DNA from: Thermoplasmatota archaeon
Lineage (GTDB): Archaea > Thermoplasmatota > JAKEGO01
Length of the DNA: 64,000 bases
NCBI GenBank assembly: GCA_028279595.1
Contig: JANQNK010000003.1
Location: 240,568-304,567, forward strand
Reading direction: 5' to 3'
Positions 7,934-41,187 of the stretch are shown piece after piece. Each line of letters opens with the position of its first letter. The stretch's first letter is position 1. The translations under genes were made by a program, and so were the position numbers. The notes under the pieces are model-generated. The model saw only the letters and a list, made by a program, of their open reading frames with translations. It did not search any database and was not told where the DNA came from.

Positions 7934-10900
7934 ATGAAGAGAGCGATAACTATCTGTCTGCTAGCGGTCGCATTCCTTGCGGTCGTTGCGATGTTCATGC
8001 CCGGAGCGGAGGCAGTGAACAGGACGTGGACCGGGTCCACGAACACTGCCTGGGCGAACGGCAACAACTGGAACCCGACAGGGGTTCCGTCGTCGTCCGA
8101 CCACGTGTTCATACCGAACGTTGCGAACGATCCGGTGATCTCCGTGGACGCCGAGACGAACAACCTCAGGCTCAATGCCTCGGCACACCTTTCCGTCGAT
8201 GGGGCGACCCTCGACGTGAACGGTGAGACGTACACGGTGTCGGGCTCGGAGATCGACCTCACCAACAACGCGACGATCGTACATTTCCGCGGGATCGTCC
8301 ATGCCTACGGAGCGGTGAACTGTTCGGATTCCACGACGACGGTCCACTGTCATGACAGCTTCTACATGCACAACAACTACATCTCCGGTCTCTCGACGAT
8401 CTATGCCGAGGGTTCCGGTTCGTATTACTTCTACCAGGGCGGGGCGACGAAGGATTACTACGACTTCGTCGTCAACGGCTCGTCGACCGATGCCAGGATG
8501 TCCGCCCCATGGTCGGTCGTAAAGAACAACCTGACTGTCGCCGACGGGGTCTTCGACCCGTACGCGCGGACGACCTTGATACGGGGCAACCTCATTGTGG
8601 ACGGCGAGCTCGAGATGTCCCGGGCGGCGGACGAGATAATCGTCAAGGGCGACATCCATTTCAACAACGGGAGCACGACCGACGTGTCCACTGGTGTCCT
8701 GTCCTGCTGGGGCGAGTGGTACATCAGGGACACAGCGGAGATGCAGTTCACTGGCAGCCACGAGAGCATCATGAACGGGTCGACGATGACATGGCACACG
8801 ATGGAGTGCCACAGTCCGGACAGTCACTTCAACATGCTCTCGATCGAAAAGACTGGGAACAACGTGGAACTCGCCGGAACGGAGCCCGTGAACGTCACTG
8901 ACGATCTCAGGATAGAAATGAGCGTCCAGAACCAGATATTCGACGTTTATCACGGAGGCCTTGTCGTCCATGGAGACGTCGCAGTGAACAGGGGAGGTTT
9001 CGAGTTCTGGGGCGTCGGCGTGGCGGACGTCATGGGAAATGTGACCGTGGCAACGGTCGGGAAGATCCGTTTCGAGAACGTGGGACGCCTGAACGTCGGT
9101 CGGAACCTCACCCTCAACGGAGACCTGTTCTTCAGCCACACCAACGGAGGCACGACCTCCGTGGATGGTATCACCTGGATCCAGAACGGCGGGCAGATCG
9201 TATACAATAGCCAGTTCGGCGAGTTCCTCGCCGGGGGTGCGATCTACCTCAACAACACATGCTCGATCGACATGTCCGCTGGCAATGCATACCTGAACCA
9301 GACCCTGAACAGCTTCTTCTATGTCAGGGACCTGGTCAACCTCAGGAACGACGACGCCCGCCTCAATATCGGACACATGTGGATAACTGGCGGCGGACAT
9401 GTGAATTGCCATGGTTACTCTCCCGAGATCGGAGTGAAGAACCACTGGTACGATTACGGGACGTTCACCCACGGTACGTCCACCGTGACCTTCACCGAGA
9501 CCTGGACATTCCTATACAACGAATTCGCCTTCTGGAACGTCGTCGTCGACAAGTTATGGAAGATGCAGCTGAGCGATGACACGACGATCAACGGGACGTT
9601 GGTGGTCGACGGCGGGACGCTGGACATCTACGACGAATCCCTCAGGGTCAACGGCAGCGGACCACTCAACTATGGAGGTACGGATTACACCGGTCTCGTC
9701 GTCCTCGACGGCGCGATCGAGATGGACGACGCAGCGGACTTCATAGAGGTCAACAGCGATGTCTACTGGGGTGCAGACTCGACGGCCATCATTACCAACG
9801 GAACCATCAACTGTACCGGCAACTGGACCTTCGCTTCCGGGTCGGATGTCAACCTGACCGGAAGGAACACCGTCAACCTCAACGGGAGTGTGAACCTGGT
9901 CTTCTCTGGAGACCTCGACCGTTACCTCTGGACCAATTCGACATCGTCGAGTTTCAACCACCTGAACATCACCGGATGGGGGACCATTTTCGGTGACGAG
10001 GTCGTCACATGGATCGACGGTACCGAGACGGTGGTGGTCGACGGCCACCTCAGCAAGTTCGGTAGAGGTGGCGACGTGATCATGGGCTCGTCGGCGTTCG
10101 AGGTCTGGGGGAACGTCAACATCTCCGAGGGTCTGATATGGCTCGACGGTCCGGGCTCCATCGACGTACACGGGGACCTGTTCGTCTACGATGACATCGG
10201 AGGAGTTTCCGATGACGGGACCTTGTGGTTAGGGGCGAACGCCACAAAGACCGGCGAAGGCACAGTCGATGTGGCCGGAAGGTTCTGGACCTCGGGCAGA
10301 GTTTCGTTCCGCGGGCTTGGCGGGAACCTCACGGTTGCCGAGTACCTCACCATTGCGTCAATGGGCGGCCTGGAGTTCGTCGGGACCGCCGGGAACATCT
10401 CGACCCATACGATCTACAAGGAAGGGGGAAGCGGATTCGCGATCTACTCCAACGATACCACGATCGACGTGCACGACCTCATAGTCAACACGAGCATGGT
10501 GGTCGGGAAGCGTAAGACCCCGACATTCCTGATCTCGGGCGACTTCGACTGGGCGGGTTCCCTGTGGATCGAGCCAGGCCACTCCGAGTTCAGGCTCGAT
10601 GGGACCGGGAGCCAGACAATGGACAGCGGGTTCACCTACTGGGGCGTCGTCATCGACAAGCCGTCCGGGGATGCGGACTGGGATGGTCACATCTTCGTGG
10701 AGAGCTACTTCGCGGTACACCGGGGCGGTTTCGAGCTGGACAACAAGGTGTTGAGGGTGTACGGCAATGGAACGACGGCGGACGGTTACTCCAGGGGGAC
10801 CGGTCTCTTCCGCGGGTTCATCGTCGAGGACGCCTACTTCAACATGACCACTGCCAATGCCAACCTGTGGGTACGGACGGTATATCTCTTCTCCGGAAGC

Positions 10901-13900
10901 AAGGGCAACTTCAGCGACGGTCAGATCCATTGCAACTACTACTGGTACGTCGAGGTCGGGTCGTTCATCAACATGACCGGGACGACGACATACTTCGACG
11001 GCGATCCGAGCAGTTTCCTCTATGTCTATTCCCCAGTGTTCAGCTTCTACCGCCTCATCATCGCGAAGGACAGCGTATACGCCATGACCATCGGGAGCAT
11101 CCACACTCAACTAGTGGTGGTGAAGGACAACCTCACGGTGAACATGGGCGGCTACGAGGACCCGGTGAACGTCAGGGGAGACCTGTTCGTGGGCGGTCAT
11201 CTCGAGGTCAGGGAAGGCGTGATGCACTTCTACGACGAGAGCAACACGAGGGTCAAGAGGGGCATGTACATCAATGGCGATGGTTCATCGAAGTTCGGTC
11301 ATGCGATCGGTGGCGCGAACCTCGACATAGGCGGGGAGCTCTCCATCGCGGGTTACGGTATGCACTTCAACGACACCGGAGGGAACGTGACAGTGGGCTG
11401 CACCACGTGGATCGATTCCGTCCTCGGCTTCAACGCCGAGAACGGGAACGTCACGACGTTCTCGACATACGAGATCGAGGTGAATGGTACTGGTATCCTT
11501 TACGTCGCATCCAACGAGACCTACATCTCCACCGACCTGGACATCAGCTATTCCGGGACGATCCGGGTCGAGGACGAGGCGAAGCCGAGGTTCACTGTGC
11601 GCGATGACTGGCACTCCGGCGGCGGGACCTTCCAGTCCGGCATGAGTGAGGTCTGGTTCGAGGGGGACCTCTACCAGTACATCTCACCCGAGCGGTTCTG
11701 GATCGTCGTGATCAATAAGACCGACTTCAACGCCTATCCATCCGGAGCGAACCTGACCATCAAGTCTTGCCTCTTCGTCCTCCAGGGGGTCTACGATGCA
11801 TGGTTGCACACGACCCACGTCAACATGTCATCGCCTGGATTCCTCTACAACGGGACCTACTACACAGGTTTCGTCAACTACGGCGGAGTCCTCAGGATGA
11901 CCAATACCCAGAGCGTCATGGACATCAACGGTCCAACGGTTTGGGGTCCGATGAGCCAGGACGACATCCAGGATGGGGAGATGTACTGCAACGGTTCCTG
12001 GAACTTCACGGCCGGTTCCCAGGCGAGCCTCGACAACATCACCGTGACGTTCGACGGGAACAACTACGACACGTACTTCAACTGGGTGACCGTCCAGTCC
12101 CACAGCACGATGAGCTACTTCACGGACCTCGTCCTGTCGAGGGATTCGGGACAGGGGGTCGCTCTCGATCATCCTTCGACAGTACCCCTTCTGGTGGAGG
12201 GGGATATCGTCTCAAGTGGCAATTTCGCAGTCCTCCATTCGACCATGAACGTCACTGGCAGCTGGAACCAGACTGCAGGGCTCCTCATGGTGAACACGGA
12301 ATTCTGGAACGTGGTCGGAACGACCCACCTGTTCATCGGCGGTGATCTGTACGTTCAATCCGGTGCTACCCTCTATTACCAATCCAATTACTTCAACAGC
12401 ACCATAGAATGTGCGGACCTGGTGATAAATGGAACTCTCACGGTCTCCTCGATGCTACACCAGAACTGGCTGAACGCGAGCGGGTCATCGGTCATCAGCG
12501 GGATCGCCAACATATTCGGTCTCGGAGCCTGGAACACAGGCGGAACACTGACCATCGCCACGGGAGCCTCAGTCTACGTTTCCGGAAACAGATACCACAT
12601 CAATGCATCACTATCCGTGATTCTGCAAAGCGGTACCAACACAAGGCTCTACTCCGACGGCGTACACCTGAGGGCGGGAGCCTATTTCTCCCTCTTCGGC
12701 ACGCTAGACTGCGATGGCTTTACCCCCGAGATACATGTCGGCGCCGACTGGTCGTCCAGTCCGGGAGCCACCTTCGATCCGGGAGAGAGCACGGTCTTCT
12801 TCGAGGGCACTGGTGTAAGCACTACCATCGACAACACCGAGAGGTTCCACAACATCCACGTCGACATCGTATCAAGGAACCTCACCCTCGTGACGGGCGA
12901 CATATCATGTCACGACCTGAACCTGACCTCGGGGACGATCGAGCTCGACGATCACAGCCTGACGGTCCGAAACGACTTCTTCGGTCACGATAGGTTCGAG
13001 ATGGACGGCGATATCTGGTTCAACGTCAGCGGCAACGTCAACTGGCACAACGGGAGTGTTGCTGATATCATCCGGGGCTCCTGCATCGTTTCCGAGGACC
13101 TCTTGATAGATAACGGAGCAGACGTAACCTACGGACCATCGTCACTCCTGAGGTTCAACAGCAGCAGAACGAGCCGATGGTTGAACAACGATCCAGGATC
13201 GGACTTCGGCGATGTCGAGATCAACAAATCGAGCCGTCTGTATGCCGTCCGGGGCTATACGATATACATGGACAGCCTCGCTGTCAACAACAAGGGATCC
13301 CAACTCCAGATACACCTGCAAACGCAACGCATCGTCGTTGATGGAGACCTTGAACTCATACGGGGAACACTCAACCCGCACACTAATTCGAATGTCACAG
13401 TGAACGGGACATTGACATGCCATAATCGATCATTCCTCGATCTCGAATGGACAACCCTCAATGCAGATACCCTCATCATCGATGGGAAGATGTACCTCAA
13501 TGGTACTTCAGGCGATGTCTGGGTCGGTGGCTCTGCATACATCCCGGGAAGCGAGATCATTTGGAACAGGGTCTCCGATATGATCGTCCTTGGTGATATG
13601 TGGGTCAACATCACGGGCATCGTGAACATGAGTGCCTCCTCCGGCTACCTCGAGATATTCGGGGACCTCAACATATACGGCCTCGTCGATCTGTCCAACG
13701 ATTACGCCACCCTGACCGTGCATGGAGACCTGCAGGTCTGGCCACTTGGCGGCGGGACACTCAGAGTAAGGGACAATGCGGAACCGGATATCTATCTGTA
13801 CGGTCACTTCAACGGCCTCGGACCGGCCTCTGTCTTCGAACCAGGCCATTCGGTATTCCATCTGATGGGCCCCAACTATCAGAGCCTCGAGGACCGGTTC

Positions 13901-16336
13901 GATTACTGGGGCGTCGTGGTCGAGAAGAACGGCTCATACGCGCGGTTCGAGGGGAACCCGGGAAACACCGCCCACATCCGATCGTTCCTTGTGATCGAGA
14001 CGGGAACGTTCAACCTGATGGACGCTTCTGTCATGGTCAATTCCAGCGGCAGCGGTCACTCGATATGGCCAGACTCCTTCGTGGGTTTCGCGAACTACGG
14101 TGGATACTTCGTCATGTCGAACGAGAACGGGTCCCTGGATGTCAATGGACCCGTCTACTGGGGCGATACCTCCACCGAATACATCACTGATGGCGACATC
14201 CACGTATCTGGCAATTGGCACATAGAGAGCGGAGCCCTCATGACCCTGACCGACAAGAACCATGTGCATTTCGATGGGAACGAGTCTGCGATGTACTACG
14301 GATACGCCAACGGCTCCCAGTTCCGGAACGTCACCGTCGAGAAGGACCCGACCCTTGCCCTGACCTTCGGGGGCGGGATCATGAACGTCACCCACACATT
14401 GACGATCGATTCGACGGCTGGTATCGACGTCTGGAACTCGACCCTCGAGGCATTCGGCATCGTCCACGACGATGGCGAGTTGAACGTCTCAGGACCTGAC
14501 GGAGAGCTGTACGTCTGGGACACCATCGCGATGGACAGTACCTCTACTCTGTCCATGAGCAACGATTCCTATGCCTACATCAAGGACTTCACGGGAATGG
14601 GCACGATCTGGCTCGGGAACAGGACGAACCTGACGATAGTGGACGATCTGTGGATGCCCACCGGAACCCTGAATCCAGGGAGGTCCGTCGTACACTTCAC
14701 GGGAGGAGCAGCCACGAGCATCGATATCGGTGGGTCCTTCCACGACCTCACCGCGGATAAATCCGGGATAACCCAGGTCGGTCTGAACGACGAGACCTTC
14801 ATCGAGGGCGACCTGACTATACTGATGGCCGCCTTCTACCCGCAGGCTCACAACATCCACATCGGCGGCGACTTCTACTGCTCACCCTCCGCGTGGTTCG
14901 CCCAGGCCTCATCCGATCCGGGAGAGGTGATATTCAATGGCATGAAGGTCCAGTACCTCAGGTCCGGCGGAACGAACTCCAACCACGACTTCCAGAACAT
15001 CACGGTCAAGGGAACCGGCACCGAGGTCCGTGTCGTCGATCACTCGATGTCGATAACTGACAGACTGACGATCGGGAGCGGGACCGAGTTCAGGTTCGCC
15101 GCTGACAACGAGACGTTCTACACCGGATCCGGCGGCGTGATCAATGATGGCGTGTTCAGGGTCATCTCAGACCACGGTCCCATCGATTTCGAGGTCTATG
15201 CAGGAAGCGACATCATCAACAACGGGTCGATGCACCTCGTGGATGCGTCATGGACAAGAGCAATTCATGTCTACTCCTCGTCACCGGGGACGCAGTGGAA
15301 CCTGATCGACAACACCGCCTCCAAATCGGTTCCGAACGTCTTCCACGCGAACGTCTCGGACTCCGACGCCACAGGTGGGAACACCATCTATGCTGGCAGC
15401 GGGTACAACCATGACGACGGGAACAACGACAACTGGGTGTTCAGCGCCCGCATCAACCTCTGGTTCCACGACAACGACGGATACTCGATGAACCTCACCG
15501 TTTACAGGTTCGACAGTCCGGTGACCATCTCCGGGACCACCGGAATCTGGGACTGGGCCGACGAGAACAGAACCGCCACGCTCCAGGATGAGTACGTCAT
15601 CACCACGAACGAGGAGAGGTACTACACCGAGGACACCACATCATGGACGGTGACGTCCGAGATCAACGCGGACGTATACTACTACCGACAATGGAGGCCG
15701 TCGATCACGCTCGACGGGACCGACACCAGTCACACGGTCGGAGCATACTACACCGCTCTAGGCGGTACTACCAGCCAATCCAGCCAACACACCTCATGGT
15801 CGAGGTGGGTCGACAACGGCACTGCGCTGAGCTTTGACAAGGACGCCTCCGGGACGCCGGCTAGACATACAAGCGAAGACTTCAGTGCGTCCCCGTGGGA
15901 CCCCGTTGGCTCTGCGTTCACGCGGACCGTTTCCTATTCAGGGAACGACGTGCCGGAGCTCTACAACGGATCGATGGACCCGTCCGGAGGGAACGTCACG
16001 ACCATGTTCAACTTCACGGTCGAGTACTGGGACGCGGACAACGACACGCCTTTGTTCGTCTATGTGAACATCGACGGGACGAACTACAGCATGGACAAGG
16101 TCGACTCAGGCGATAACGACTACACTGACGGCTGCGAATACTACTACGAGACCCTTCTGTCTGGCGGAGACCACGACTACTACTTCATCTGCAACGACTC
16201 GTATGCAACGAACCAGACATCTACAGAGAACACCGGTACGATCATTCCCGAGTTCGGGATCCTGCCAGTGATGATCTCGATGATGGCCGTTGGCGCAGCA
16301 ATATCCTGGAGGCGGAGGAGAAAGGGTCTCCGATGA
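7934..16336 (+). CDS. Giant secreted surface protein 1 (about 2800 aa), repetitive beta-rich, PEF-CTERM-like C-terminus
   Basis: Signal peptide MKRAITICLLAVAFLAVVAMFMPGAEA; N-terminal WTGSTNTAWANGNNWNPTGVPSSSDHVFIPN; six ~360-aa supermodules; C-terminal ...STENTGTIIPEFGILPVMISMMAVGAAISWRRRRKGLR. ORF track starts at 7847, but SD GGTGAC supports ATG 7934. Confidence 0.9.
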   Translation: MKRAITICLLAVAFLAVVAMFMPGAEAVNRTWTGSTNTAWANGNNWNPTGVPSSSDHVFIPNVANDPVISVDAETNNLRLNASAHLSVDGATLDVNGETYTVSGSEIDLTNNATIVHFRGIVHAYGAVNCSDSTTTVHCHDSFYMHNNYISGLSTIYAEGSGSYYFYQGGATKDYYDFVVNGSSTDARMSAPWSVVKNNLTVADGVFDPYARTTLIRGNLIVDGELEMSRAADEIIVKGDIHFNNGSTTDVSTGVLSCWGEWYIRDTAEMQFTGSHESIMNGSTMTWHTMECHSPDSHFNMLSIEKTGNNVELAGTEPVNVTDDLRIEMSVQNQIFDVYHGGLVVHGDVAVNRGGFEFWGVGVADVMGNVTVATVGKIRFENVGRLNVGRNLTLNGDLFFSHTNGGTTSVDGITWIQNGGQIVYNSQFGEFLAGGAIYLNNTCSIDMSAGNAYLNQTLNSFFYVRDLVNLRNDDARLNIGHMWITGGGHVNCHGYSPEIGVKNHWYDYGTFTHGTSTVTFTETWTFLYNEFAFWNVVVDKLWKMQLSDDTTINGTLVVDGGTLDIYDESLRVNGSGPLNYGGTDYTGLVVLDGAIEMDDAADFIEVNSDVYWGADSTAIITNGTINCTGNWTFASGSDVNLTGRNTVNLNGSVNLVFSGDLDRYLWTNSTSSSFNHLNITGWGTIFGDEVVTWIDGTETVVVDGHLSKFGRGGDVIMGSSAFEVWGNVNISEGLIWLDGPGSIDVHGDLFVYDDIGGVSDDGTLWLGANATKTGEGTVDVAGRFWTSGRVSFRGLGGNLTVAEYLTIASMGGLEFVGTAGNISTHTIYKEGGSGFAIYSNDTTIDVHDLIVNTSMVVGKRKTPTFLISGDFDWAGSLWIEPGHSEFRLDGTGSQTMDSGFTYWGVVIDKPSGDADWDGHIFVESYFAVHRGGFELDNKVLRVYGNGTTADGYSRGTGLFRGFIVEDAYFNMTTANANLWVRTVYLFSGSKGNFSDGQIHCNYYWYVEVGSFINMTGTTTYFDGDPSSFLYVYSPVFSFYRLIIAKDSVYAMTIGSIHTQLVVVKDNLTVNMGGYEDPVNVRGDLFVGGHLEVREGVMHFYDESNTRVKRGMYINGDGSSKFGHAIGGANLDIGGELSIAGYGMHFNDTGGNVTVGCTTWIDSVLGFNAENGNVTTFSTYEIEVNGTGILYVASNETYISTDLDISYSGTIRVEDEAKPRFTVRDDWHSGGGTFQSGMSEVWFEGDLYQYISPERFWIVVINKTDFNAYPSGANLTIKSCLFVLQGVYDAWLHTTHVNMSSPGFLYNGTYYTGFVNYGGVLRMTNTQSVMDINGPTVWGPMSQDDIQDGEMYCNGSWNFTAGSQASLDNITVTFDGNNYDTYFNWVTVQSHSTMSYFTDLVLSRDSGQGVALDHPSTVPLLVEGDIVSSGNFAVLHSTMNVTGSWNQTAGLLMVNTEFWNVVGTTHLFIGGDLYVQSGATLYYQSNYFNSTIECADLVINGTLTVSSMLHQNWLNASGSSVISGIANIFGLGAWNTGGTLTIATGASVYVSGNRYHINASLSVILQSGTNTRLYSDGVHLRAGAYFSLFGTLDCDGFTPEIHVGADWSSSPGATFDPGESTVFFEGTGVSTTIDNTERFHNIHVDIVSRNLTLVTGDISCHDLNLTSGTIELDDHSLTVRNDFFGHDRFEMDGDIWFNVSGNVNWHNGSVADIIRGSCIVSEDLLIDNGADVTYGPSSLLRFNSSRTSRWLNNDPGSDFGDVEINKSSRLYAVRGYTIYMDSLAVNNKGSQLQIHLQTQRIVVDGDLELIRGTLNPHTNSNVTVNGTLTCHNRSFLDLEWTTLNADTLIIDGKMYLNGTSGDVWVGGSAYIPGSEIIWNRVSDMIVLGDMWVNITGIVNMSASSGYLEIFGDLNIYGLVDLSNDYATLTVHGDLQVWPLGGGTLRVRDNAEPDIYLYGHFNGLGPASVFEPGHSVFHLMGPNYQSLEDRFDYWGVVVEKNGSYARFEGNPGNTAHIRSFLVIETGTFNLMDASVMVNSSGSGHSIWPDSFVGFANYGGYFVMSNENGSLDVNGPVYWGDTSTEYITDGDIHVSGNWHIESGALMTLTDKNHVHFDGNESAMYYGYANGSQFRNVTVEKDPTLALTFGGGIMNVTHTLTIDSTAGIDVWNSTLEAFGIVHDDGELNVSGPDGELYVWDTIAMDSTSTLSMSNDSYAYIKDFTGMGTIWLGNRTNLTIVDDLWMPTGTLNPGRSVVHFTGGAATSIDIGGSFHDLTADKSGITQVGLNDETFIEGDLTILMAAFYPQAHNIHIGGDFYCSPSAWFAQASSDPGEVIFNGMKVQYLRSGGTNSNHDFQNITVKGTGTEVRVVDHSMSITDRLTIGSGTEFRFAADNETFYTGSGGVINDGVFRVISDHGPIDFEVYAGSDIINNGSMHLVDASWTRAIHVYSSSPGTQWNLIDNTASKSVPNVFHANVSDSDATGGNTIYAGSGYNHDDGNNDNWVFSARINLWFHDNDGYSMNLTVYRFDSPVTISGTTGIWDWADENRTATLQDEYVITTNEERYYTEDTTSWTVTSEINADVYYYRQWRPSITLDGTDTSHTVGAYYTALGGTTSQSSQHTSWSRWVDNGTALSFDKDASGTPARHTSEDFSASPWDPVGSAFTRTVSYSGNDVPELYNGSMDPSGGNVTTMFNFTVEYWDADNDTPLFVYVNIDGTNYSMDKVDSGDNDYTDGCEYYYETLLSGGDHDYYFICNDSYATNQTSTENTGTIIPEFGILPVMISMMAVGAAISWRRRRKGLR
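8648..14176 (+). repeat. Higher-order protein-coding repeat, 6 anchors at 8648, 9755, 10874, 11930, 13031, 14147
   Basis: Recurrent motif (G/S)-D-V-Y-W-G-x-x-S-T-x(5-6)-G-x-I-x-C-x-G-x-W; spacings 1107, 1119, 1056, 1101 and 1116 nt, measured by hand. Confidence 0.75.
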
Positions 16337-16532
16337 GGTCGTGTCGGTCCCGAGCTCGTCCGTTCTGATCTCAACGAATCTGCTGCACCTATTTCGGGGT
16401 AAACCGCAGATCCGTCTGGATCGGACATGAGTTCGTCAGGCCAACGAGGTCTTAAGTGTCCGATCTCTCCCACCCGCCCATCGTGACCCGTGCAGGTGAG
16501 AGTCCATCGACGTTGTGTCCAGTCTATAACAG

Positions 16533-16540
16533 TTATATAA
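16533..16540 (+). promoter_or_regulatory. Putative TATA box for giant surface gene 2
   Basis: TTATATAA inside GTTATATAAC. Confidence 0.6.
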
Positions 16541-16570
16541 CTTCGAATCGATACCCATCCAGGTGACCGT

Positions 16571-16593
16571 CGGGTGGTCTGGGGTATCGCCCG
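16571..16593 (+). promoter_or_regulatory. Leader stem-loop upstream of giant gene 2
   Basis: CGGGTG (16571-16576) pairs with CGCCCG (16588-16593, one G-T wobble); alternative GACCG/CGGTC pairing. SD-like GGTGAT precedes ATG 16615. Confidence 0.4.
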
Positions 16594-16614
16594 GTCGGTT
16601 GAACGGGTGATGAT

Positions 16615-19600: not shown

Positions 19601-22600
19601 TGACCTCCAATGATGTCTATGCACGTACCTTCACGATGCACAGCTCCGATTTCACGTTCAACGACCTGATAATCAACACATCCACAAGGATGACCCAGAC
19701 CAGTTACAGCAGTCATCCCATCCACGTGACGGGGGACCTGTGGATCAACAATACCGACAACTACGACGAGTTCAACATCACCAAGGGTTTGGTGGTGGAC
19801 GGCGACATCAACATCCGGATCGGATCATTGGTCCTCAGCAATGGCGCCGAGGTTACCGTGGGCGGCGACGTGGAGCAGCTCCCCGCCAGGTGGAACGGAT
19901 GGTTGCGTATATACAACGGTTCGATGGATATCGGCGGTTACTATCACTGCGACGGATGGGGTGTCGACGTGTCCTACCATGGCGGTTCGATGGACATCAC
20001 TGGCCCTCTATGGATCGACTCTCAGCTCCCGCCTGCTGGACCTGGATTCTATGTTGGACAGAAACCGGGGTACTCGTTCGATCTGACGGCGGAGTTCATC
20101 CGGATCAATGCTACCGGATACATGAACCTGTCCTCTGACAACACGAGGATAGTAAGTCAGGCAGATCTGATCAACCATGGTTCCCTCCGTTCATGGGGCG
20201 ATGCGATGCCGGATATCGTGACATACGATGACATAGAGGGATCGGGGACCTTCAATCTCGGGCACAGTTCGATATGGTACGAGGGCGACAACGCGTTCCA
20301 GGACGTCCGCGACCTTCCCTACTGGAACCTGGTGATCAACAAGACTTCGGGAGTGGCGCGATCACAGTCCGACATCTCCGTCGAGTCCTGCCTGTTCATC
20401 ATGAACGGGACCTACGACATGAACGGCTACAAGCTCTGGGTGAACAGCAGCGGGAACAGCTTCATATGGAACGGGACGCACTACAGCGGTTTCGTCAACT
20501 ATGGAGGCATCCTGTTCTACCAGACCTCCGACGAGGAGCTCCACGTGAACGGACCGGTCTCATGGGGACCTGGTGTGAACCAGACCTTCGACATGGGGAC
20601 GATCTACGTCAACGGCTCCTGGGAGTTCATGGCAGGGTCCCAGGTCAACCTCACGGGAACCCACCTCGTCTACTTCTGGGGTCGAAACTGGTTCGGACCG
20701 TATATCTCATGGGCGCCGATCTACTCGAACAGCACGACGAGTTGGTTCAACGACATCACAATCGACAGGGACTTCGGTTTTGGACAGTACACTTCGGAGA
20801 AGTCAACGGAAACCGTCGTCGTCAAAGGTGACATGGACCATGACGGTGGATTGTTCGAGATCTATGCGTCCACGATGTACGTGGTCGGGAATGTCGATAA
20901 CAGGGGCCAGTCGTTCTACGTGGAAGGGACCACGGTCTTTGGGAACGCATCCCTGACGGTCGATGGTGACTTCTACTCACAGTCCGGCTCCTCACTCAAT
21001 GTCTTCGGTAGTGCATCATATGCCTGGTCAAGGATGACCTGCAGCTATCTCTACGTGAACGGCTCACTCAATCTGAAGTCCTACTCATCGGTGCACGCTG
21101 GCGAGAACATCTGGATATCCGGCTCCATCGACTACGACCAAGCGGGCTTCCAGTGGGCCGAGGTGATATCCGACGGGAACATATACGTCAGTTCTCCTGG
21201 CAACGTCGACATGAGCGGTATCGGGAGGTCCCATCTCAACACGACATCGGGATTCATCGTGGTCTACAACGGAGCCACCCTCGACCTGAGGGGCAATGCC
21301 CAGGTGACCGCGTGGACCCATTTCCACCCATACGGGACCGTCATCTGCACCGGATGGTGGCCCGAGATCAATGTCGGCAACGCTTGGTATTCCGATACCT
21401 CCGGCGACTTCAGGCCCGGCTGGAGCCAGGTCACCTTCTTCAAGGCGGGGACGTCATACATCAAGGACACCGAGGACTTCGCAGACATAATCCTCAACAA
21501 GACCTCTGGACTCCTTTACCTCTACGATGGGGACCTGAACTGCACGGACCTGGACATCGAGAGTGGAACCTTCGACCTCAATGGATACAACCTGACGGTC
21601 ACTGACGACCTCACCGTCTGGGGGTCCCTCGAGATGGACCACGACGGATGGATAAACGTGACACACGAGGTCAACTGGATGAACGGGAGCACCGAGGATA
21701 TCACCAACGGAACGATCCAGTGCGACGGCCTGTGGTACATCGAGGACGGAGCCGACATGACCTTCGAGTACCCGGTACACGTCTACCTGAACGCGTCCAC
21801 GGACGTGATCGTGGACGATCCCGACTCGTACTTCGACAACCTCACGTTCAGGCTCATGGGTGGTGGATTGACCGCTTACATCAACGGGACCGAGGCATTG
21901 AACGCCACAAGCGTGCTCAAGATCGATGACAAGGTGACCGTCCGCCTCATCGGAGGGAGCATAGAGGCCACGCAACTCTTGCTCTACTACGCAAGCGAGT
22001 TGAACGTTTCGTCGCCGGATTCGACACTCCACGTTTGGGATTATCTGTACATGGACAGCTTTACCGAACTGATGCTGGACAACGGATCCTACGCGATGGT
22101 CCAGGACTTCTTCCCGGCTCAGGACATCTACGTGATGAACGGATCGAACCTGACCGTGGTCGACGACCTCATCGGCGGCAGGATCCTCTCAAGGGATGGC
22201 GATGTGTACATCGATGATGGTGCTTCGACCTCATTGAACACCAAGGGACGATTCCACAACCTGACGTTCGGCGGGGGAGCCTCGGTCTACGCGAGGATGT
22301 GGATAGGAGGTGACCTGCGGATACTGGGAGGAACTGTCTACCCGCAGGACAATGACGTCGGTATCCTCGGTGATTACTATTGTTCGAAGACGGCTGCATT
22401 CCGGCCGGCGAACGGGAGCAGGTTGGTGTTCAACGGCACAGGGAGACAGTTCATGGAGACCGGCGGTACGGACTCCAACCACGAACTCTGGGACCTGATA
22501 ATCAATCACACGACACTGATAGTCCAGAACGGTTCGCTCTCCGTCAAGAACAACATTACTGTCATGGACCTCTCCATGCTCTGGATAAAAGCGGACAACA

Positions 22601-23811
22601 TGACATTGTACACCGGTGAGGACGGCCTATGGAATGACGGCTCCTTCCTCTTCGAAGGCCCGAAAGGGAAGAACTCGATCGTGTTCTACGCCGGGACCAA
22701 TGTGACGACCGATGGCTACTTCGTCATCACGGGGAACCCGACCTACAGGACGATAGTCAGATCGTCATCTGCGGGCACCCAGTGGAATTTCAACGATTCG
22801 ACCCCCGAGCAGTCCTTGCCATCGTTCGATCGCATCCGGGTCCGGGATTCGGATGCCACCTCCGGAGACACCATCTACGCTGACGGGACGAGCGTCGATG
22901 CTGGCAACAATGACAACTGGGCCTTCGGGAAGCCGCTGACCCTGGACCTGTCGGGACTCGAGGGTCAATACGCGAACCTGACTGTCGAGCAACAGGGCCT
23001 TACGACCTACGTCTACCTTACGGACGGTATCACCGAGTCCTGGGCCGACAGCGGCACGACAGCGACTCTCGTGGAAGAGTACTCCGTTTCATCGACAGAG
23101 AGGTATTACACCGAGGACACCACATCATGGTCGATGTCCGGGAACGTCTCTGCGAGCGTGACCTTCTATAGACAGTGGAAGCCGACGATCACTCTTGACG
23201 GAACCGACGCGAGCCACACAGTGACGGCGTATTACACGGTCCTGGGTGGCAATTCGAGCCAATCGGGCCAGCACACCTCCTGGTCCAGGTGGGTGGACAA
23301 CGGTTCAGCACTGAGCTTCGACGAGTTCGCGACCGGTGATCCCGAAAGGCACACGGGCGAGGATTTCGACATCCCGCCATGGGATCCGTTGACATCCGCT
23401 CTGGTCTACACTCTCGACTACGCCGAGAACGAGGTCCCGGAGCTCCACAACGGGAACATGGACCCCGCTAGCGGGAACCTCTCGACGCTGTTCAACTTCA
23501 CCGTCGAGTACTGGGACTCGAACGATGACGCGCCATTGTTCGTCTACGTCAACATCGACGGCACCAACTACACGATGAACAAGACCGACCGGAGCGACCA
23601 CGACTACACCGACGGTTGCGAGTACCACTACGAGACCTACCTCTCCGGTGGCGACCACGACTACTACTTCATTGCGAACGACACGTATTCGACGAACCAG
23701 ACGGCGATGGAGAGCACTGGAACGGTCATTCCCGAATTCGGTCCGACCGTGGTCATCGTATCGATGATGGCCGTCGGCGTCGCCGTGATCTGGAGGCGTA
23801 GACGCCGGTAG
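16615..23811 (+). CDS. Giant secreted surface protein 2 (2398 aa), paralog of 7934-16336, PEF-CTERM-like
   Basis: Signal peptide MRMLRAILCLMLVLAVVVVLAPMSAEA; WTGSTNTAWAQGNNWNPTGVPGSTDVVYIPDVSNDP; C-terminus STGTVIPEFGPTVVIVSMMAVGVAVIWRRRRR; five supermodules. Confidence 0.93.
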   Translation: MRMLRAILCLMLVLAVVVVLAPMSAEAETKVWTGSTNTAWAQGNNWNPTGVPGSTDVVYIPDVSNDPVVQADATVKMVQINDSAVLTIDGATFNVTNRIIIKSDVADGSLELSNDLNGVNVESIYNYGSILVNSGRTPMVNLSHLYSYSGSTIKSGFSTFTFVGAGNNTAYMDVIDPLYNVIIDAPTATLMMNGTYGLDADGQFRIIDGKLDPTGKEMVVSYLYCYDEIEMETGDWLHVTGDANFYNGSYLHGDNGTLTIDDDLYIGRGSTIELEGSHHFNITEFHWGSNLNLHEDSAQFNDVTIDKGYGHVALNTNMTINGTLTVSRGVFKVIDVDSLSVRYLVVHSNGHVQQSRDSNVTVTEDVSLYSGSRYELGNGTNDWHGGSLAIGRDIDISGRLWLFGRGGEIVLTRHMRIYGSGNLTFYGGNLTTVGPSSGAYTYGGSDTYIHSSNTTITFDTYTHYAGCRWWVNRSASPTIVFKSYIYNAGTVTAYTPGLSTIVAYGNYVASNLDSDIPVRNLVINKTSGHFKPSYGPGTLNISGSLLLIDGELDIRGEEGYNIVVNGSDGIMHEGQMYRGFANIGGELLMETWNDSLEVSGGVYWGPDSEATVDTGWIHCRGNWTFAAGSSINLTGNNTVRFFGGMMGYSYQLWMNSSASSFCNVLHGMGMTSSFVNGTVPMVIDNNLTFTSLNAMFVEDGAELIVWGDANVTSILYVNEGGDVYIHGNLTVAGGPGRLDFGLNSTSDYGGSLHVNGWMSVWNPVNFYMDGGNLTVDGNATIHRTGYIMFKTHGGNMSAGNISINDGGALRIYTTNTTIDTAQLRSYGELNISNSVRPVLRISGRFNWLNGDFRLGRSEVRAVGTSDQRFEDSHPYWGLVIDKPSGNLTFEAPFPIVAQSYIGVAQGTLAVGGYTIQCEGEGSFGTDGYVIGVNRYPGFIMDGGVLDMNHTSGVLEVDRFLRWFDGTANGSSGTIITDASWTVYAGVDADIQCPVVMTSNDVYARTFTMHSSDFTFNDLIINTSTRMTQTSYSSHPIHVTGDLWINNTDNYDEFNITKGLVVDGDINIRIGSLVLSNGAEVTVGGDVEQLPARWNGWLRIYNGSMDIGGYYHCDGWGVDVSYHGGSMDITGPLWIDSQLPPAGPGFYVGQKPGYSFDLTAEFIRINATGYMNLSSDNTRIVSQADLINHGSLRSWGDAMPDIVTYDDIEGSGTFNLGHSSIWYEGDNAFQDVRDLPYWNLVINKTSGVARSQSDISVESCLFIMNGTYDMNGYKLWVNSSGNSFIWNGTHYSGFVNYGGILFYQTSDEELHVNGPVSWGPGVNQTFDMGTIYVNGSWEFMAGSQVNLTGTHLVYFWGRNWFGPYISWAPIYSNSTTSWFNDITIDRDFGFGQYTSEKSTETVVVKGDMDHDGGLFEIYASTMYVVGNVDNRGQSFYVEGTTVFGNASLTVDGDFYSQSGSSLNVFGSASYAWSRMTCSYLYVNGSLNLKSYSSVHAGENIWISGSIDYDQAGFQWAEVISDGNIYVSSPGNVDMSGIGRSHLNTTSGFIVVYNGATLDLRGNAQVTAWTHFHPYGTVICTGWWPEINVGNAWYSDTSGDFRPGWSQVTFFKAGTSYIKDTEDFADIILNKTSGLLYLYDGDLNCTDLDIESGTFDLNGYNLTVTDDLTVWGSLEMDHDGWINVTHEVNWMNGSTEDITNGTIQCDGLWYIEDGADMTFEYPVHVYLNASTDVIVDDPDSYFDNLTFRLMGGGLTAYINGTEALNATSVLKIDDKVTVRLIGGSIEATQLLLYYASELNVSSPDSTLHVWDYLYMDSFTELMLDNGSYAMVQDFFPAQDIYVMNGSNLTVVDDLIGGRILSRDGDVYIDDGASTSLNTKGRFHNLTFGGGASVYARMWIGGDLRILGGTVYPQDNDVGILGDYYCSKTAAFRPANGSRLVFNGTGRQFMETGGTDSNHELWDLIINHTTLIVQNGSLSVKNNITVMDLSMLWIKADNMTLYTGEDGLWNDGSFLFEGPKGKNSIVFYAGTNVTTDGYFVITGNPTYRTIVRSSSAGTQWNFNDSTPEQSLPSFDRIRVRDSDATSGDTIYADGTSVDAGNNDNWAFGKPLTLDLSGLEGQYANLTVEQQGLTTYVYLTDGITESWADSGTTATLVEEYSVSSTERYYTEDTTSWSMSGNVSASVTFYRQWKPTITLDGTDASHTVTAYYTVLGGNSSQSGQHTSWSRWVDNGSALSFDEFATGDPERHTGEDFDIPPWDPLTSALVYTLDYAENEVPELHNGNMDPASGNLSTLFNFTVEYWDSNDDAPLFVYVNIDGTNYTMNKTDRSDHDYTDGCEYHYETYLSGGDHDYYFIANDTYSTNQTAMESTGTVIPEFGPTVVIVSMMAVGVAVIWRRRRR
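17335..21693 (+). repeat. Higher-order repeat, 5 anchors at 17335, 18412, 19486, 20551, 21664
   Basis: Same anchor motif as giant gene 1; spacings 1077, 1074, 1065 and 1113 nt. Confidence 0.7.
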
Positions 23812-23896
23812 ACCAGTACCGATACGGTCAAAATGACCCAGGACCCCGATCCGGAGGAATTACACCTGTCCAGTCATGTCAAGTACTTGCAGTAAG

Positions 23897-23904
23897 CATA
23901 AATA
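23897..23904 (+). promoter_or_regulatory. Putative TATA box for giant surface gene 3
   Basis: CATAAATA in an AT-rich patch. Confidence 0.45.
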
Positions 23905-23931
23905 CAGCCAGGTCGATATCTCAAGACGACT

Positions 23932-23958
23932 GGACCCGGGGCGACTGAACGTGGGTCC
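23932..23958 (+). promoter_or_regulatory. Leader stem-loop upstream of giant gene 3
   Basis: GGACCC (23932-23937) pairs perfectly with GGGTCC (23953-23958), 15-nt loop; SD GGGTGAT precedes the start codon region. Confidence 0.45.
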
Positions 23959-23966
23959 TGTCATGA

Positions 23967-26900
23967 ATGGGTGATCAGATGCGTGGATGGAGACATTTTG
24001 GATTCGTATTGATAGTGATAGCGGCCCTCACAGTATTGGCCCTGCCAGCGGTCGAGGGCGAGATCAAGGATTGGACCGGCACGACGAACTCGAACTGGGG
24101 GACCGCCTCCAACTGGGACCCCTCCGGGGTTCCGACGTCGTCGGACAACATCTACATCGACGACCAGACGAACGATCCGGTCATTCAGACTGATGCTGTG
24201 GCATATGGCATCTACATAAATGGGTCCGGGATCCTGGACATCGACGGTGCGACCCTGAACGGCAGTTACATACAGGTAGAGGACGGGGGCACGCTCGACC
24301 TGACCAACGACGCGACGATCGTCAACCTTCGTCAGAGCCTTCACCTCTACGGGAAGCTCGATTGCGGAGCTTCCAACACACCCGAGATCAACCTCAGGCG
24401 CATCTACATGACCTCCACGTCATCGACCAGTCCAGGCTGGTCGACGGTTACCTTTGTCGGAGGAAACCCTGGAAGTGTCTTCAACAACGGATACGAGGAG
24501 CTGTGGGACGTTGTGATCGACGAGGACACCGCGGTCAATGTCACCAGTGGAGACCTCATCATATTGAACGACTTCACTATAACCAATGGCTCCTTCGACC
24601 CTAACGGTCATCTCGTGGAGGTCGGGGATAACCTCCGATGCTTCGACAGGATAGTCATGAACGATCTCGACGACAACATATCGATCGATGGCAGGTCATA
24701 CTTCTATTCTGGATCGAACCTCTCCGGCGACGATGGTGTACTCCATCTGAAGGATTGGACTACGTTCGAGATCGGCTCGAAGGCGAACTTCACAGGGAAA
24801 CATATGCTACTGTCCACAGGAGCGGGGGATATATACTACGACATCTGGAGCCCCGATGTCAGGTTCAACAATGTCACGACCAACAAATCGAGCTCCTTCG
24901 TGGCCGTTAGAGGGTACCTGTGGGTCCACGAGACGATCACGGTCGAGTATGGGTATTTCTATGTTCTCTACGGAGGCAATCCTTACAATGTTACGACGAC
25001 CAATCTGACGATCCAGGACAATGGGATCTTCTATCTCTACCAGTGGGCCACTGTGAACGTGACGAACGACATCGACATTCTCGACGGAGGAGAGATCATC
25101 CTCGGTCGGAGCACAACATGGGGCGGGACGTTGAACGCGAACAATGACATCTTTAGCTTCGGGGATATCACCTTCCAGACCGGTGGCGGCAATCTCAACG
25201 TGGGTGATGACCTGTTCATCTACTCAACAGCGAACGTCACCATGCACGCGGGAAATATCACGGGAACGACGGACACCATCCTTTATCTCTATGGCGATCT
25301 CTACATCAATACCAACGATACCACGGTCTACTTCCACAATTGGTACATCTACGGTTCCAGCCAGATGTGGGTGGCAAACCAGGCGACCCCGGAGCTCCAG
25401 TGGTCCGGCATGATCTACGAGCAGGGATCGCCGAACGTGTGGCATCCCGGTCACAGCACGTTCATGGCGGTCGGTGTCAACTTCCCTGCTATCGACGCGA
25501 GGTTCTCATATTACGGTGTCGGCGTCAATCTGACGTCCGGCTTCATGGCACCGGGATACGACGATATCCTGTACATCGATAGCCATCTGGTCATCATCAA
25601 CGGTGCGTTCCGGATGAATGATAGGACAGTTCGTATCAACGGGTCCGGGTCCTACATGTACGATGGCATGGAATACACGGGATTCGCGAACATCGGCGGC
25701 GAGCTGACCATGGAGAGCGACGACGAGTACCTGATGTCATATGGTCACGGCGGCGTCTACTGGGGCCCTGACAGCACCTCGGACGTCGATGCCGGTTCCA
25801 TCAACTGCTCCGGCGATTGGGTGTTCGCAGCGGGTTCGGACGCAAACCTCAGGGGTACGAACATGGTAAGACAGCAGGACCTCGGGGTCGAGTCCACCTA
25901 TTGGATCAACTCCTCGGACAGCAGCTTCCAGAACGTCACCATCAATTCGATATTCGCCGCCTCGCATCTGAACGGGACGGAGACCATGGTGGTCAAGGGC
26001 GATCTCACGATAAACGGACTTACCGCCTTCGTGGTCGACGGCAACGATCTCGAGGTCCAGGGTGACCTCAACGGGACCGGCGGGAATCTGTGGGTCCTCG
26101 GAACTGACAATTCGGTCGAGGTCCAGGGGGATGCGTACATGATGGGTAGTTCCCTGAACCTGGGTCAGGCCTCCTCCTCGAGCGAGGGTGGGACCGTCGA
26201 GATCGATGGATATCTCTCGATCGACGAGGGTCTCAACTTCGAGGAGGGAGAGGGCGAGGTCACAGTAGGCGAGACACTGTTCGTATCATCGACCGGGGTC
26301 GTCTCCTTCGATGGTACGAAAGGGACGCTCACAGCAGGGAGCATGATCTTGAACAGTTCGAGCGACGTCAACCTCACCGGTTCAGGTGAATACGTGATCA
26401 ACGTCCTGGGCGACCTGAGGATAAACGGAGTCCTCAACATGACCAACGATAACGCAATCCTGAGGGTCGGCGGTGACCTGATCCTCCCCGATGGCCATCT
26501 GGACTGCGGCCCCAAGTACGAGCCCGAGATATTCATTGGCGGCGACTTCGACTGGCTGTTCGGAGGTCTTAACTTCACCGCGGGTCACAGCACCGTGTTC
26601 ATCGATGGATCCGGCGACCAGAAGATTGACAACGACTTCCGCTTCTACGGTCTGGTCGTGAACAAGACCGGCGGTGAGATGTACTTCGAATGGAGCCATC
26701 CCGGCGATCGGGACATCCCGAAGTTCGAGTCCTTCTTCTTCATCGAGGCGGGCACCTTCAACATGAGGAACACGAGCATCAGGGTCTGCGGCAACGGGTC
26801 CGGTTACCAGGGAGTCGCACTCTACACCGGGTTCGTGAACCTGGGCGGCCACTTCGTAATGCAGAATGGATCGTCCACCCTAGAGGCTTTCGAGGACATC

Positions 26901-29081
26901 CTCTGGGGTTCCACTGCGACCGGGAACGTGACCAACGGGACAATCGTCGCCCATGACAACTGGATCGTCCAGGGCAACGGATACATGGAGCTCGGCGGCG
27001 ACAATCTGGTCTTCCACAAGGGTGGCGATACTTCCCTGTTCAATTTCGTCGGCGAAGCCATCTTCAACAACTTCACGATGCGGAAGTGGTCGGACAACTA
27101 CGAGACCTTGATCGTCGGTGAGGGCGGGATGAACGTCACGAATCTACTGAACATCTATGGCGATTCCAACATGGAGGTCAGATCGAAGCTGGAAGCTACC
27201 TACATCGACCTGTATGGTAACTCCCTCCTCAACATGTCTTTCAACGTCAGCGAGCTGCGCGTCTGGGAGACGATCGAAACGAGCTCGGGTGCGGAGGTCC
27301 GCGTGGGAGACAACGCATATGCGATGACCCGGAACATCACTGGAAGCGGGGACATATACCTTGGAACGAACACGAACCTGACGCTACGTCAGAACATGTG
27401 GATGAATCCGACCACAACACTGTATCCCGGAATGTCCACTGTCTATTTCGGAGGCAAGAACACCACACAGGTACGACTATACAACGGTGGCTTCTACAAT
27501 GTGATCGTCGCCAAATACCGGATCGGGAACAGGGCCGTCCTCATGTATACTGCTTCGGATTACTACATCGACGGGAACCTGACCCTGAGGAACGGTACCT
27601 TCTACTCAAATGGACGGATCTTCCACCTTAAGGGCAACTTTGATAACAACGGATGGTGCAGGTTCGATCCATCCCCGAGCGGATACTTCGTCTTCGACGG
27701 TGGTGGTACTCAGTACATCCAGACGGGCGGGGACTTCGGTAATGTCGGATTCGAGGACCTGAGGGTGGAGTCGTCGACCCAGGTTATCGTCCAGAACTAC
27801 TCGATGAGGATCGATGGAATACTCCTGATAGAGGGCGGTTCGGCGTACCAGTTCAAGTCAGAGGATGGTACGCTCACTCTAGGAGACCGCGGAATGTTCA
27901 ATGATGGAACGTTCCATGTATGGCCCTCCTCCGGTAAGGGAAAGTTCGTCGTGACGGCCGGAACGACCGTGACGAACAATGCGACGATGTACCTCGTGGG
28001 AAACACCGAACAAGCGCCACTTCGCATCAGGTCCTCCTCGGACGGGACTCAATGGAACCTCGAGGACAACACCGCATCAGATCAACAACCTCACGTTCAG
28101 CGTGCCCTTGTCAAGGATTCCGACGCCAGCGGCGGGAACACAATCTATACATGGATGTACTGCGTGGACCAGGGCAATAACGAAAACTGGGTGTTCTCCC
28201 ATCCGTTGACGATATACATCACCGGGCTCGAGGGACACGACGTCAATCTCACCTGGACCCAGAGGAACTCCACCGGTTCGGCACCGATTTCCTTTTCGGT
28301 CCTCGTGTTCTCGGACAACGACACCACCGCATCTATCGAGGACCTCTATACTGTATCATCCACCGAACGGTACTACACCGAGGATACGACGTCATGGGAC
28401 GTGACTGATAACACGACCGTCTATGTCAACTTCTACAGACAGTGGAAACCGACGATCACCCTTGATGGCACCGATGCATCTCACACCGTATCCGCATACT
28501 ACACGGCTCTCGGTGGGAACACCAGCCAGAGCGGACAGCACACGTCCTGGTCGAGGTGGTGCGACAACGGTTCCAGACTATCGTTCAGCAAGGACGCCAC
28601 CGGATCTCCGCCGAGCCACACCAGCGAGGACTTCACAAGGGACCCATGGGACCCGCTAACGTCGGCACTCGTGAAGACCGTCTACTACGAAGGGAACGTC
28701 AAACCGGAGCTGAAGAACGGCACCATGGACCCGTCCGGCGGCAACCTGACGACGGTATTCAACTTCACCGTGGAGTATTGGGATGACAACAACGATATCC
28801 CGCTGTTCGTCTACGTGAACATAGACGGCACGAACTACTCGATGGAGAAGGTCCAGAAGGGCGACCACGATTACACCGACGGTTGCGAATACTACTACGA
28901 GACCAAGCTGTCCGGCGGCGACCACGACTACTACTTCATCTGCAACGACTCTTACGAGACGACCCAGACCTCGTCCGAATCCACGGGCACGATAGTTCCG
29001 GAGTTCGGGATGCTGACGGTATTGATCTCGGTCATGATGGTCGGCGTCGCTGTCATGTGGAGGCGCCGTAGAAGACATTGA
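23967..29081 (+). CDS. Giant secreted surface protein 3 (1704 aa), paralog, PEF-CTERM-like
   Basis: Signal peptide; DWTGTTNSNWGTASNWDPSGVPTSSDNIYIDDQTNDP; C-terminus STGTIVPEFGMLTVLISVMMVGVAVMWRRRRRH; three supermodules. ATG at 23979 (MRGWRHFGF) follows GGGTGATCAG and may be the true start. Confidence 0.92.
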   Translation: MGDQMRGWRHFGFVLIVIAALTVLALPAVEGEIKDWTGTTNSNWGTASNWDPSGVPTSSDNIYIDDQTNDPVIQTDAVAYGIYINGSGILDIDGATLNGSYIQVEDGGTLDLTNDATIVNLRQSLHLYGKLDCGASNTPEINLRRIYMTSTSSTSPGWSTVTFVGGNPGSVFNNGYEELWDVVIDEDTAVNVTSGDLIILNDFTITNGSFDPNGHLVEVGDNLRCFDRIVMNDLDDNISIDGRSYFYSGSNLSGDDGVLHLKDWTTFEIGSKANFTGKHMLLSTGAGDIYYDIWSPDVRFNNVTTNKSSSFVAVRGYLWVHETITVEYGYFYVLYGGNPYNVTTTNLTIQDNGIFYLYQWATVNVTNDIDILDGGEIILGRSTTWGGTLNANNDIFSFGDITFQTGGGNLNVGDDLFIYSTANVTMHAGNITGTTDTILYLYGDLYINTNDTTVYFHNWYIYGSSQMWVANQATPELQWSGMIYEQGSPNVWHPGHSTFMAVGVNFPAIDARFSYYGVGVNLTSGFMAPGYDDILYIDSHLVIINGAFRMNDRTVRINGSGSYMYDGMEYTGFANIGGELTMESDDEYLMSYGHGGVYWGPDSTSDVDAGSINCSGDWVFAAGSDANLRGTNMVRQQDLGVESTYWINSSDSSFQNVTINSIFAASHLNGTETMVVKGDLTINGLTAFVVDGNDLEVQGDLNGTGGNLWVLGTDNSVEVQGDAYMMGSSLNLGQASSSSEGGTVEIDGYLSIDEGLNFEEGEGEVTVGETLFVSSTGVVSFDGTKGTLTAGSMILNSSSDVNLTGSGEYVINVLGDLRINGVLNMTNDNAILRVGGDLILPDGHLDCGPKYEPEIFIGGDFDWLFGGLNFTAGHSTVFIDGSGDQKIDNDFRFYGLVVNKTGGEMYFEWSHPGDRDIPKFESFFFIEAGTFNMRNTSIRVCGNGSGYQGVALYTGFVNLGGHFVMQNGSSTLEAFEDILWGSTATGNVTNGTIVAHDNWIVQGNGYMELGGDNLVFHKGGDTSLFNFVGEAIFNNFTMRKWSDNYETLIVGEGGMNVTNLLNIYGDSNMEVRSKLEATYIDLYGNSLLNMSFNVSELRVWETIETSSGAEVRVGDNAYAMTRNITGSGDIYLGTNTNLTLRQNMWMNPTTTLYPGMSTVYFGGKNTTQVRLYNGGFYNVIVAKYRIGNRAVLMYTASDYYIDGNLTLRNGTFYSNGRIFHLKGNFDNNGWCRFDPSPSGYFVFDGGGTQYIQTGGDFGNVGFEDLRVESSTQVIVQNYSMRIDGILLIEGGSAYQFKSEDGTLTLGDRGMFNDGTFHVWPSSGKGKFVVTAGTTVTNNATMYLVGNTEQAPLRIRSSSDGTQWNLEDNTASDQQPHVQRALVKDSDASGGNTIYTWMYCVDQGNNENWVFSHPLTIYITGLEGHDVNLTWTQRNSTGSAPISFSVLVFSDNDTTASIEDLYTVSSTERYYTEDTTSWDVTDNTTVYVNFYRQWKPTITLDGTDASHTVSAYYTALGGNTSQSGQHTSWSRWCDNGSRLSFSKDATGSPPSHTSEDFTRDPWDPLTSALVKTVYYEGNVKPELKNGTMDPSGGNLTTVFNFTVEYWDDNNDIPLFVYVNIDGTNYSMEKVQKGDHDYTDGCEYYYETKLSGGDHDYYFICNDSYETTQTSSESTGTIVPEFGMLTVLISVMMVGVAVMWRRRRRH
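24690..26921 (+). repeat. Higher-order repeat, 3 anchors at 24690, 25749, 26892
   Basis: Same anchor motif; spacings 1059 and 1143 nt. Confidence 0.65.
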
Positions 29082-29178
29082 TTTCCGACCGATCAGCGTC
29101 CGTGATCATACGTACGAGCTGCACATTTCAGTGGACACCATTATTAACGCTAATCACACTCACCGTATTGGTGTTAGA

Positions 29179-41005: not shown

Positions 41006-41187
41006 CACACCGCTTACTGACATCCATTCCAAACACAGTTATAAATATATCTGTATCCCCGTAACTGTTATATTAGACCCGAAGGGCCAGGCATCGCGGA
41101 CGGGTGTCGGACAATGTTATCACCGTCAAGTCCAGAACCCTGTCTGCGGGAAGGGTCAAATTAAAGTAGGAGCCCTGACATAGATAC

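Follow-up and report, generated by a model that had tools for sequence, protein, structure and literature searches.

Giant predicted surface solenoids of an uncultured Thermoplasmatota lineage carry position-specific supermodules

The window analysed here, a 64,000-nt stretch from an uncultured Thermoplasmatota archaeon whose 2.29-Mb genome comprises 21 contigs (estimated completeness 86%), carries three giant genes in tandem, followed by a shorter gene with a similar tail (Table 1). AT-rich, TATA-like stretches are present in the gap before each giant gene and, on the evidence of these gaps, the three may be expressed separately. Nucleotide identity among the three genes is about 45–66% depending on the region, reaching 79% only in a short Ig-like domain; misassembly as the origin of the copies was ruled out, the genes being too different. 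Adjoining them on the minus strand is a gene for a 2,862-aa S8 subtilase (32444–41032) that has CARDB domains as well as 12 Ig-like repeats of the Big_7 type, and the plus strand at 44919–49016 encodes a 1,365-aa protein that combines five Big_7 repeats with a thioredoxin/AhpC-like domain. Outside the window, the giants' Ig-like domain recurs in an 8,224-aa open frame (G000:C1:16644–41315, minus strand) that starts with a signal-like N-terminus, contains 147 sequons and finishes in a Pro/Glu-rich end.

Table 1 Giant genes, their modules and terminal cassettes (window coordinates)
Feature	Coordinates	Strand	Description and basis
Giant gene 1	7934–16336	+	2,800-aa ORF, uninterrupted; signal peptide, N-terminal cap, half module, six supermodules, C-terminal cassette
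Gene 1 half module (back part), before module 1	8171–8575	+	Profile positions 207–342, E 6.8e-10
Gene 1 m1, divergent	8573–9679	+	Not clearly m1 class; profile E 1.5e-54 though left out of profile; tree
Gene 1 m2	9680–10798	+	Tree, profile
Gene 1 m3	10799–11854	+	Tree, profile
Gene 1 m4	11855–12955	+	Tree, profile
Gene 1 m5	12956–14071	+	Tree, profile
Gene 1 m6	14072–15211	+	Tree, profile
Gene 1 C-terminal cassette	15212–16333	+	Helix cap, ~170-aa domain, Ig-like domain, PEFG, transmembrane helix, Arg-rich end
Giant gene 2	16615–23811	+	2,398-aa ORF, uninterrupted; five supermodules (m1–m4, apparently fused m5/m6)
Gene 2 m1	17260–18336	+	Tree, profile
Gene 2 m2	18337–19410	+	Tree, profile
Gene 2 m3	19411–20475	+	Tree, profile
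Gene 2 m4	20476–21588	+	Tree, profile
Gene 2 last module	21589–22695	+	First ~60–80 aa like m5/gene 1 m1, remainder m6; class scan, AU test
Gene 2 C-terminal cassette	22696–23808	+	Alignment, identity among three giants
Giant gene 3	23967–29081	+	1,704-aa ORF, uninterrupted; three supermodules (m1, apparently fused m2/m5, m6)
Gene 3 half module (back part), before module 1	24198–24626	+	Profile positions 201–345, E 4.3e-18
Gene 3 m1	24615–25673	+	Tree, profile
Gene 3 middle module	25674–26816	+	m2-like front, mostly m5-like back; class scan, half trees, AU test
Gene 3 last module, m6 class	26817–27965	+	Tree support for m6 class 100/100
Gene 3 C-terminal cassette	27966–29078	+	Modelled C-terminal helix, residues 733–751 of modelled stretch, low confidence there
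541-aa neighbour	29131–30756	+	Ig-like domain and PEFG tail as in giants, supermodules absent; tail identity 55%

A first-pass annotation had placed 14 anchors by hand and had described a ~360-aa supermodule in six, five and three copies. All 14 anchors lie in frame 0, at the claimed positions and on the claimed motif, and both their spacing (1,056–1,143 nt) and the 6/5/3 counts are confirmed. In a phase test, 90-aa windows were matched only elsewhere within their own protein, with shuffled proteins as the control: 98% of matches scoring at least 80 (n = 47) and 100% of those scoring at least 100 (n = 29) lay no more than 0.06 from a whole-number module offset, as did 15% of all windows in shuffled proteins. 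Pairwise module z-scores against shuffles ranged from 2 to 83 and were mostly above 8. A profile built from modules 2–5, with modules 1 and the last modules left out, recovered the held-out modules 1 at E 1e-36 to 1e-54 and, at E 1e-14 to 1e-26, the leading part of each last module, and covers four genes end to end: the three giants and that of a relative. The in-phase window matches and the held-out profile matches thus both bear out the periodicity.

Plain ungapped autocorrelation of the giant proteins gave no peak at a lag of ~360, because the modules contain indels. It did contain coil-scale lags of 6–8, 15 and 21–22, as would be expected were the ~360-aa period a mere by-product of generic ~23-aa solenoid coil repeats; yet strong within-protein matches sit at integer supermodule offsets only, with none clustering at coil offsets, and the module profile tiles the giants end to end. 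The phase test and the tiling have already refuted this by-product reading, to which we give next to no credence. Two corrections to the earlier module map emerged. In genes 1 and 3 and in the relative, module 1 is directly preceded by a half module (profile positions ~201–345) that had been missed, and the last unit of the giants continues for another ~75 aa, reaching into a C-terminal cap. Across the 14 modules, only one Gly and one Phe column are invariant.

AlphaFold2 models were built, from alignments made in this analysis, for a two-module stretch and for a last module with its cassette. The two-module model is an all-beta solenoid (mean pLDDT 84.6, pTM 0.74) with ~8-aa strand spacing, in which paired long strands at residues 301–335 recur at 662–694, a step of ~360 residues. 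In the other model, most of the last module is likewise an all-beta solenoid, predicted fairly confidently; the cassette after it has low confidence, and a helix forms the C-terminus. Modelling, proposed earlier as a check on the supermodule, thus returned an all-beta solenoid, and the giants are probably long beta-solenoids of the parallel beta-helix type.

Neither model matched a PDB entry at E ≤ 1e-3 in Foldseek. The weak top matches were beta-helix autotransporters and adhesins for the two-module model, and a xanthanase, then Ag43 and EspP, for the other; when the module profile was searched against PDB sequences, the two matches obtained were both at chance level. Autotransporter passengers (Ag43, EspP, Hap) are likewise long all-beta surface solenoids, a likeness limited to weak Foldseek matches, but the giants have no outer-membrane beta-barrel, end in an Ig-like domain and one transmembrane helix, and repeat a ~360-aa supermodule three to six times. 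No Pfam model spans the supermodule, and only partial G8 domains (PF10162) were matched, at 21.3, 30.6 and 23.1 bits in proteins 1–3 against a gathering cut-off of 22.9. Proteins 2 and 3 clear this cut-off and protein 1 narrowly misses it; the giants differ from G8-domain proteins in matching only parts of the model.

The family is also borne by the Thermoplasmatota MAG PL23a_bin.42 (G002), which shares its order with the source genome and whose sample, judging from the isolate naming in PMC9868349, appears to be coral skeleton. Its contig C16 encodes the N-terminus, m1 and m2 before running off the contig end, and aligns to gene 1 residues 2–935; its contig C50 encodes m3–m6 and the C-terminus and aligns to residues 942–2797, seven residues beyond C16. 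The two ends have eight bases in common at the join (CGATGTGC), and the best reading, short of proof, is that the two contigs carry the parts of a single six-module gene of ~2,795 aa. Comparing copy number across related genomes, as had been suggested, thus yielded a relative with the six-module layout, apparently in a single split gene.

At E ≤ 1e-8, the supermodule is present in 2 of 392 Thermoplasmatota genomes, the source genome and G002, and at E ≤ 0.01 among 41 relatives there was a single extra match, short and weak. G001, a 73% complete genome of the same family as the source, had zero supermodule matches, which may be due to its incompleteness. A scan of a genome-contig collection with the three-protein alignment found no match; with the C-terminal cassette, PL23a_bin.42 was the sole match. 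The Ig-like domain, unlike the supermodule, is common across Thermoplasmatota. A literature search found no description of this giant supermodule protein family. The family is real and lineage-restricted, and its giant solenoid surface proteins belong to a broadly known kind. The computations show the modules, their phasing, the positional tree and the all-beta model; glycosylation, anchoring, length, direction of change and function we infer below.

We built a maximum-likelihood tree of 20 modules, 14 from the three giants and 6 from the relative; a full-gene tree cannot be rooted here. Module position (m1 to m6), rather than gene of origin, defined the groups, with bootstraps of 100 for m1 (gene 1's m1 excluded), m4 and m6, 97 for m5, 93 for m3 and 81 for m2. 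AU tests rejected one-gene module clades (6e-6 for gene 1, 3e-68 for gene 3), and the relative's m1–m6 correspond nearly one to one with the position classes. Because modules cluster by position, their multiplication preceded gene copying and the split of these families, so the module array is older than the gene copies. Gene 1's first module falls outside the group formed by the first modules of genes 2 and 3 and the relative; it sits on a long branch of uncertain origin and was possibly swapped for another module.

Module identity is 30–39% between same-position paralogs of one genome and 30–42% to the relative, so that sharing a genome brings the paralogs no nearer to one another than to the relative, and four-fold synonymous sites look saturated everywhere, in modules and C-terminal cassette alike. 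Given this divergence and saturation, recent gain or loss is unsupported. The cassette is better conserved than the modules (61–62% identity among the three giants, 52–54% to the relative); recent gene conversion there was ruled out, its four-fold sites being as saturated as those in the modules. The grouping by position, together with these identities and the saturation, marks the change as old and not ongoing.

The six-module layout is probably ancestral. In a class scan, the first 60–80 residues of gene 2's last module resemble m5 and gene 1's m1, and the rest resembles m6; the AU test rejected placing the front with m6 (p 0.03) and the back with m5 (p 4e-8). The middle module of gene 3 has an m2-like front and a mostly m5-like back, one back window being nearer m2, and its AU tests were borderline (p 0.049 and 0.054); the cut points in both genes were picked after inspecting the data. 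There is moderate support for two independent in-register deletions, of one module in gene 2 and of three in gene 3, with chimeric modules at the joins. As separate deletions from a six-module ancestor are the simplest reading, gene 3 would not be gene 2 minus two modules.

The direction of change rests on a gene tree that has no possible root here, which leaves some room for module number having risen stepwise from three to five to six. Both mosaics count against such a rise, since duplicating an ancestral module would yield none: gene 3's middle module joins an m2-specific front to a mostly m5-like back, and gene 2's last module joins an m5/gene-1-m1-like front to an m6 rear. The relative, moreover, retains m1–m6 nearly one to one, and we regard stepwise gain as improbable. 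Under the preferred deletion history, the length differences described earlier hold as net differences of one and two whole modules, whereas homology suggests losses of one and three; evolution of length by whole modules likewise stands as loss, in an old rather than ongoing change.

The three proteins contain 89, 88 and 54 sequons, against 38, 30 and 24 in shuffles (z 9.9, 12.6 and 7.0), an excess of 2.2–2.9 times over the shuffled expectation, and the source genome encodes STT3 (E 4e-21); sequon enrichment and an STT3/AglB gene, the two features by which an N-glycosylated archaeal surface protein is judged, are thus both found. The tails of all three giants consist of PEFG, ~20 hydrophobic residues and an Arg cluster. 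An Ig-like domain with a PEFG tail occurs on five source-genome proteins: the giants, the 541-aa neighbour and a 252-aa protein on C18. Archaeosortase A (TIGR04125) is present in the genome (141 bits, cut-off 75), and a second, ArtC-like archaeosortase-like protein (L046, G000:C14:105384–106079, minus strand) scores 51 bits, under the ArtC cut-off of 100.

With known archaeosortase substrates (PGF-CTERM, PEFG-CTERM) the giants share the motif, transmembrane helix and Arg cluster, in a genome with archaeosortase A, but their tails fall below the cut-off of every curated sorting-signal model in NCBIfam, including PEFG-CTERM (8.6 and 11.1 bits, cut-off 25) and Loki-CTERM (15.1 and 13.7 bits, cut-off 19.9). 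Tail processing by the genome's archaeosortases is thus a guess. Taken from sequence, the signal peptide, sequon excess, tail, archaeosortase A and STT3 point to glycosylated, anchored stalks. Together with the all-beta solenoid model, the signal peptides, sequon excess and tail architecture back the original proposal of a surface-stalk family; its other half, a filament in the sense of a polymer, is without evidence.

The reading we favour, with more confidence than doubt, is of N-glycosylated, anchored solenoid stalks descended from a six-module gene with later in-register losses. Each giant would be exported and held by a membrane or lipid anchor, and would form a long beta-solenoid of ~360-aa supermodules, its N-terminal tip closed by a W-rich G8-like cap and its base formed by the Ig-like domain and the PEFG–transmembrane–Arg tail, possibly processed by an archaeosortase-type enzyme. 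Supermodule number would determine the reach of the stalk. With coils of ~24 aa, each adding 0.48 nm, and assuming a straight continuous helix, the model-based estimates are roughly 48, 40 and 26 nm for genes 1–3. The stalks would likely serve in adhesion or form a surface coat at differing heights. The ancestral six-module gene would predate the family split within the order and then have been copied; genes 2 and 3 would afterwards have lost one and three modules, leaving chimeric modules and keeping the solenoid phase.

Rather than standing as separate stalks, the giants might pack side by side as the structural subunits of a coat such as an S-layer. They are large, sequon-rich, anchored and in tandem copies, and RsaA is among the weak fold matches, but only at E 0.5–6, and three very unequal lengths with 30–39% module identity would be odd for a lattice of one or two subunits; we consider this unlikely, if worth keeping in view. 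Carbohydrate-active solenoids, that is, beta-helix enzymes that cleave polysaccharide as lyases or hydrolases, are far less probable still: the weak fold matches do include such lyases (PL6 lyases, a fucoidan lyase), but Pfam and NCBIfam gave no enzyme match, one hit standing at chance level (E 0.11), and zero acidic or basic residues are invariant across the 14 modules.

What is unusual in the anchored-stalk family is the positional conservation of modules combined with in-register loss. We suggest, tentatively and with more doubt than belief, that these are graded-length stalk paralogs whose reach was set by in-register deletion of whole supermodules, every supermodule retaining its place-specific identity across deep time, with position, not just number, under selection. 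An uncultured archaeal order thereby gains a lineage-restricted giant surface protein family with a readable module history, in which position-specific module identity can outlive gene duplication and solenoid length may change through phase-keeping deletion. Stalk length and anchoring become testable predictions in a poorly known part of Thermoplasmatota.
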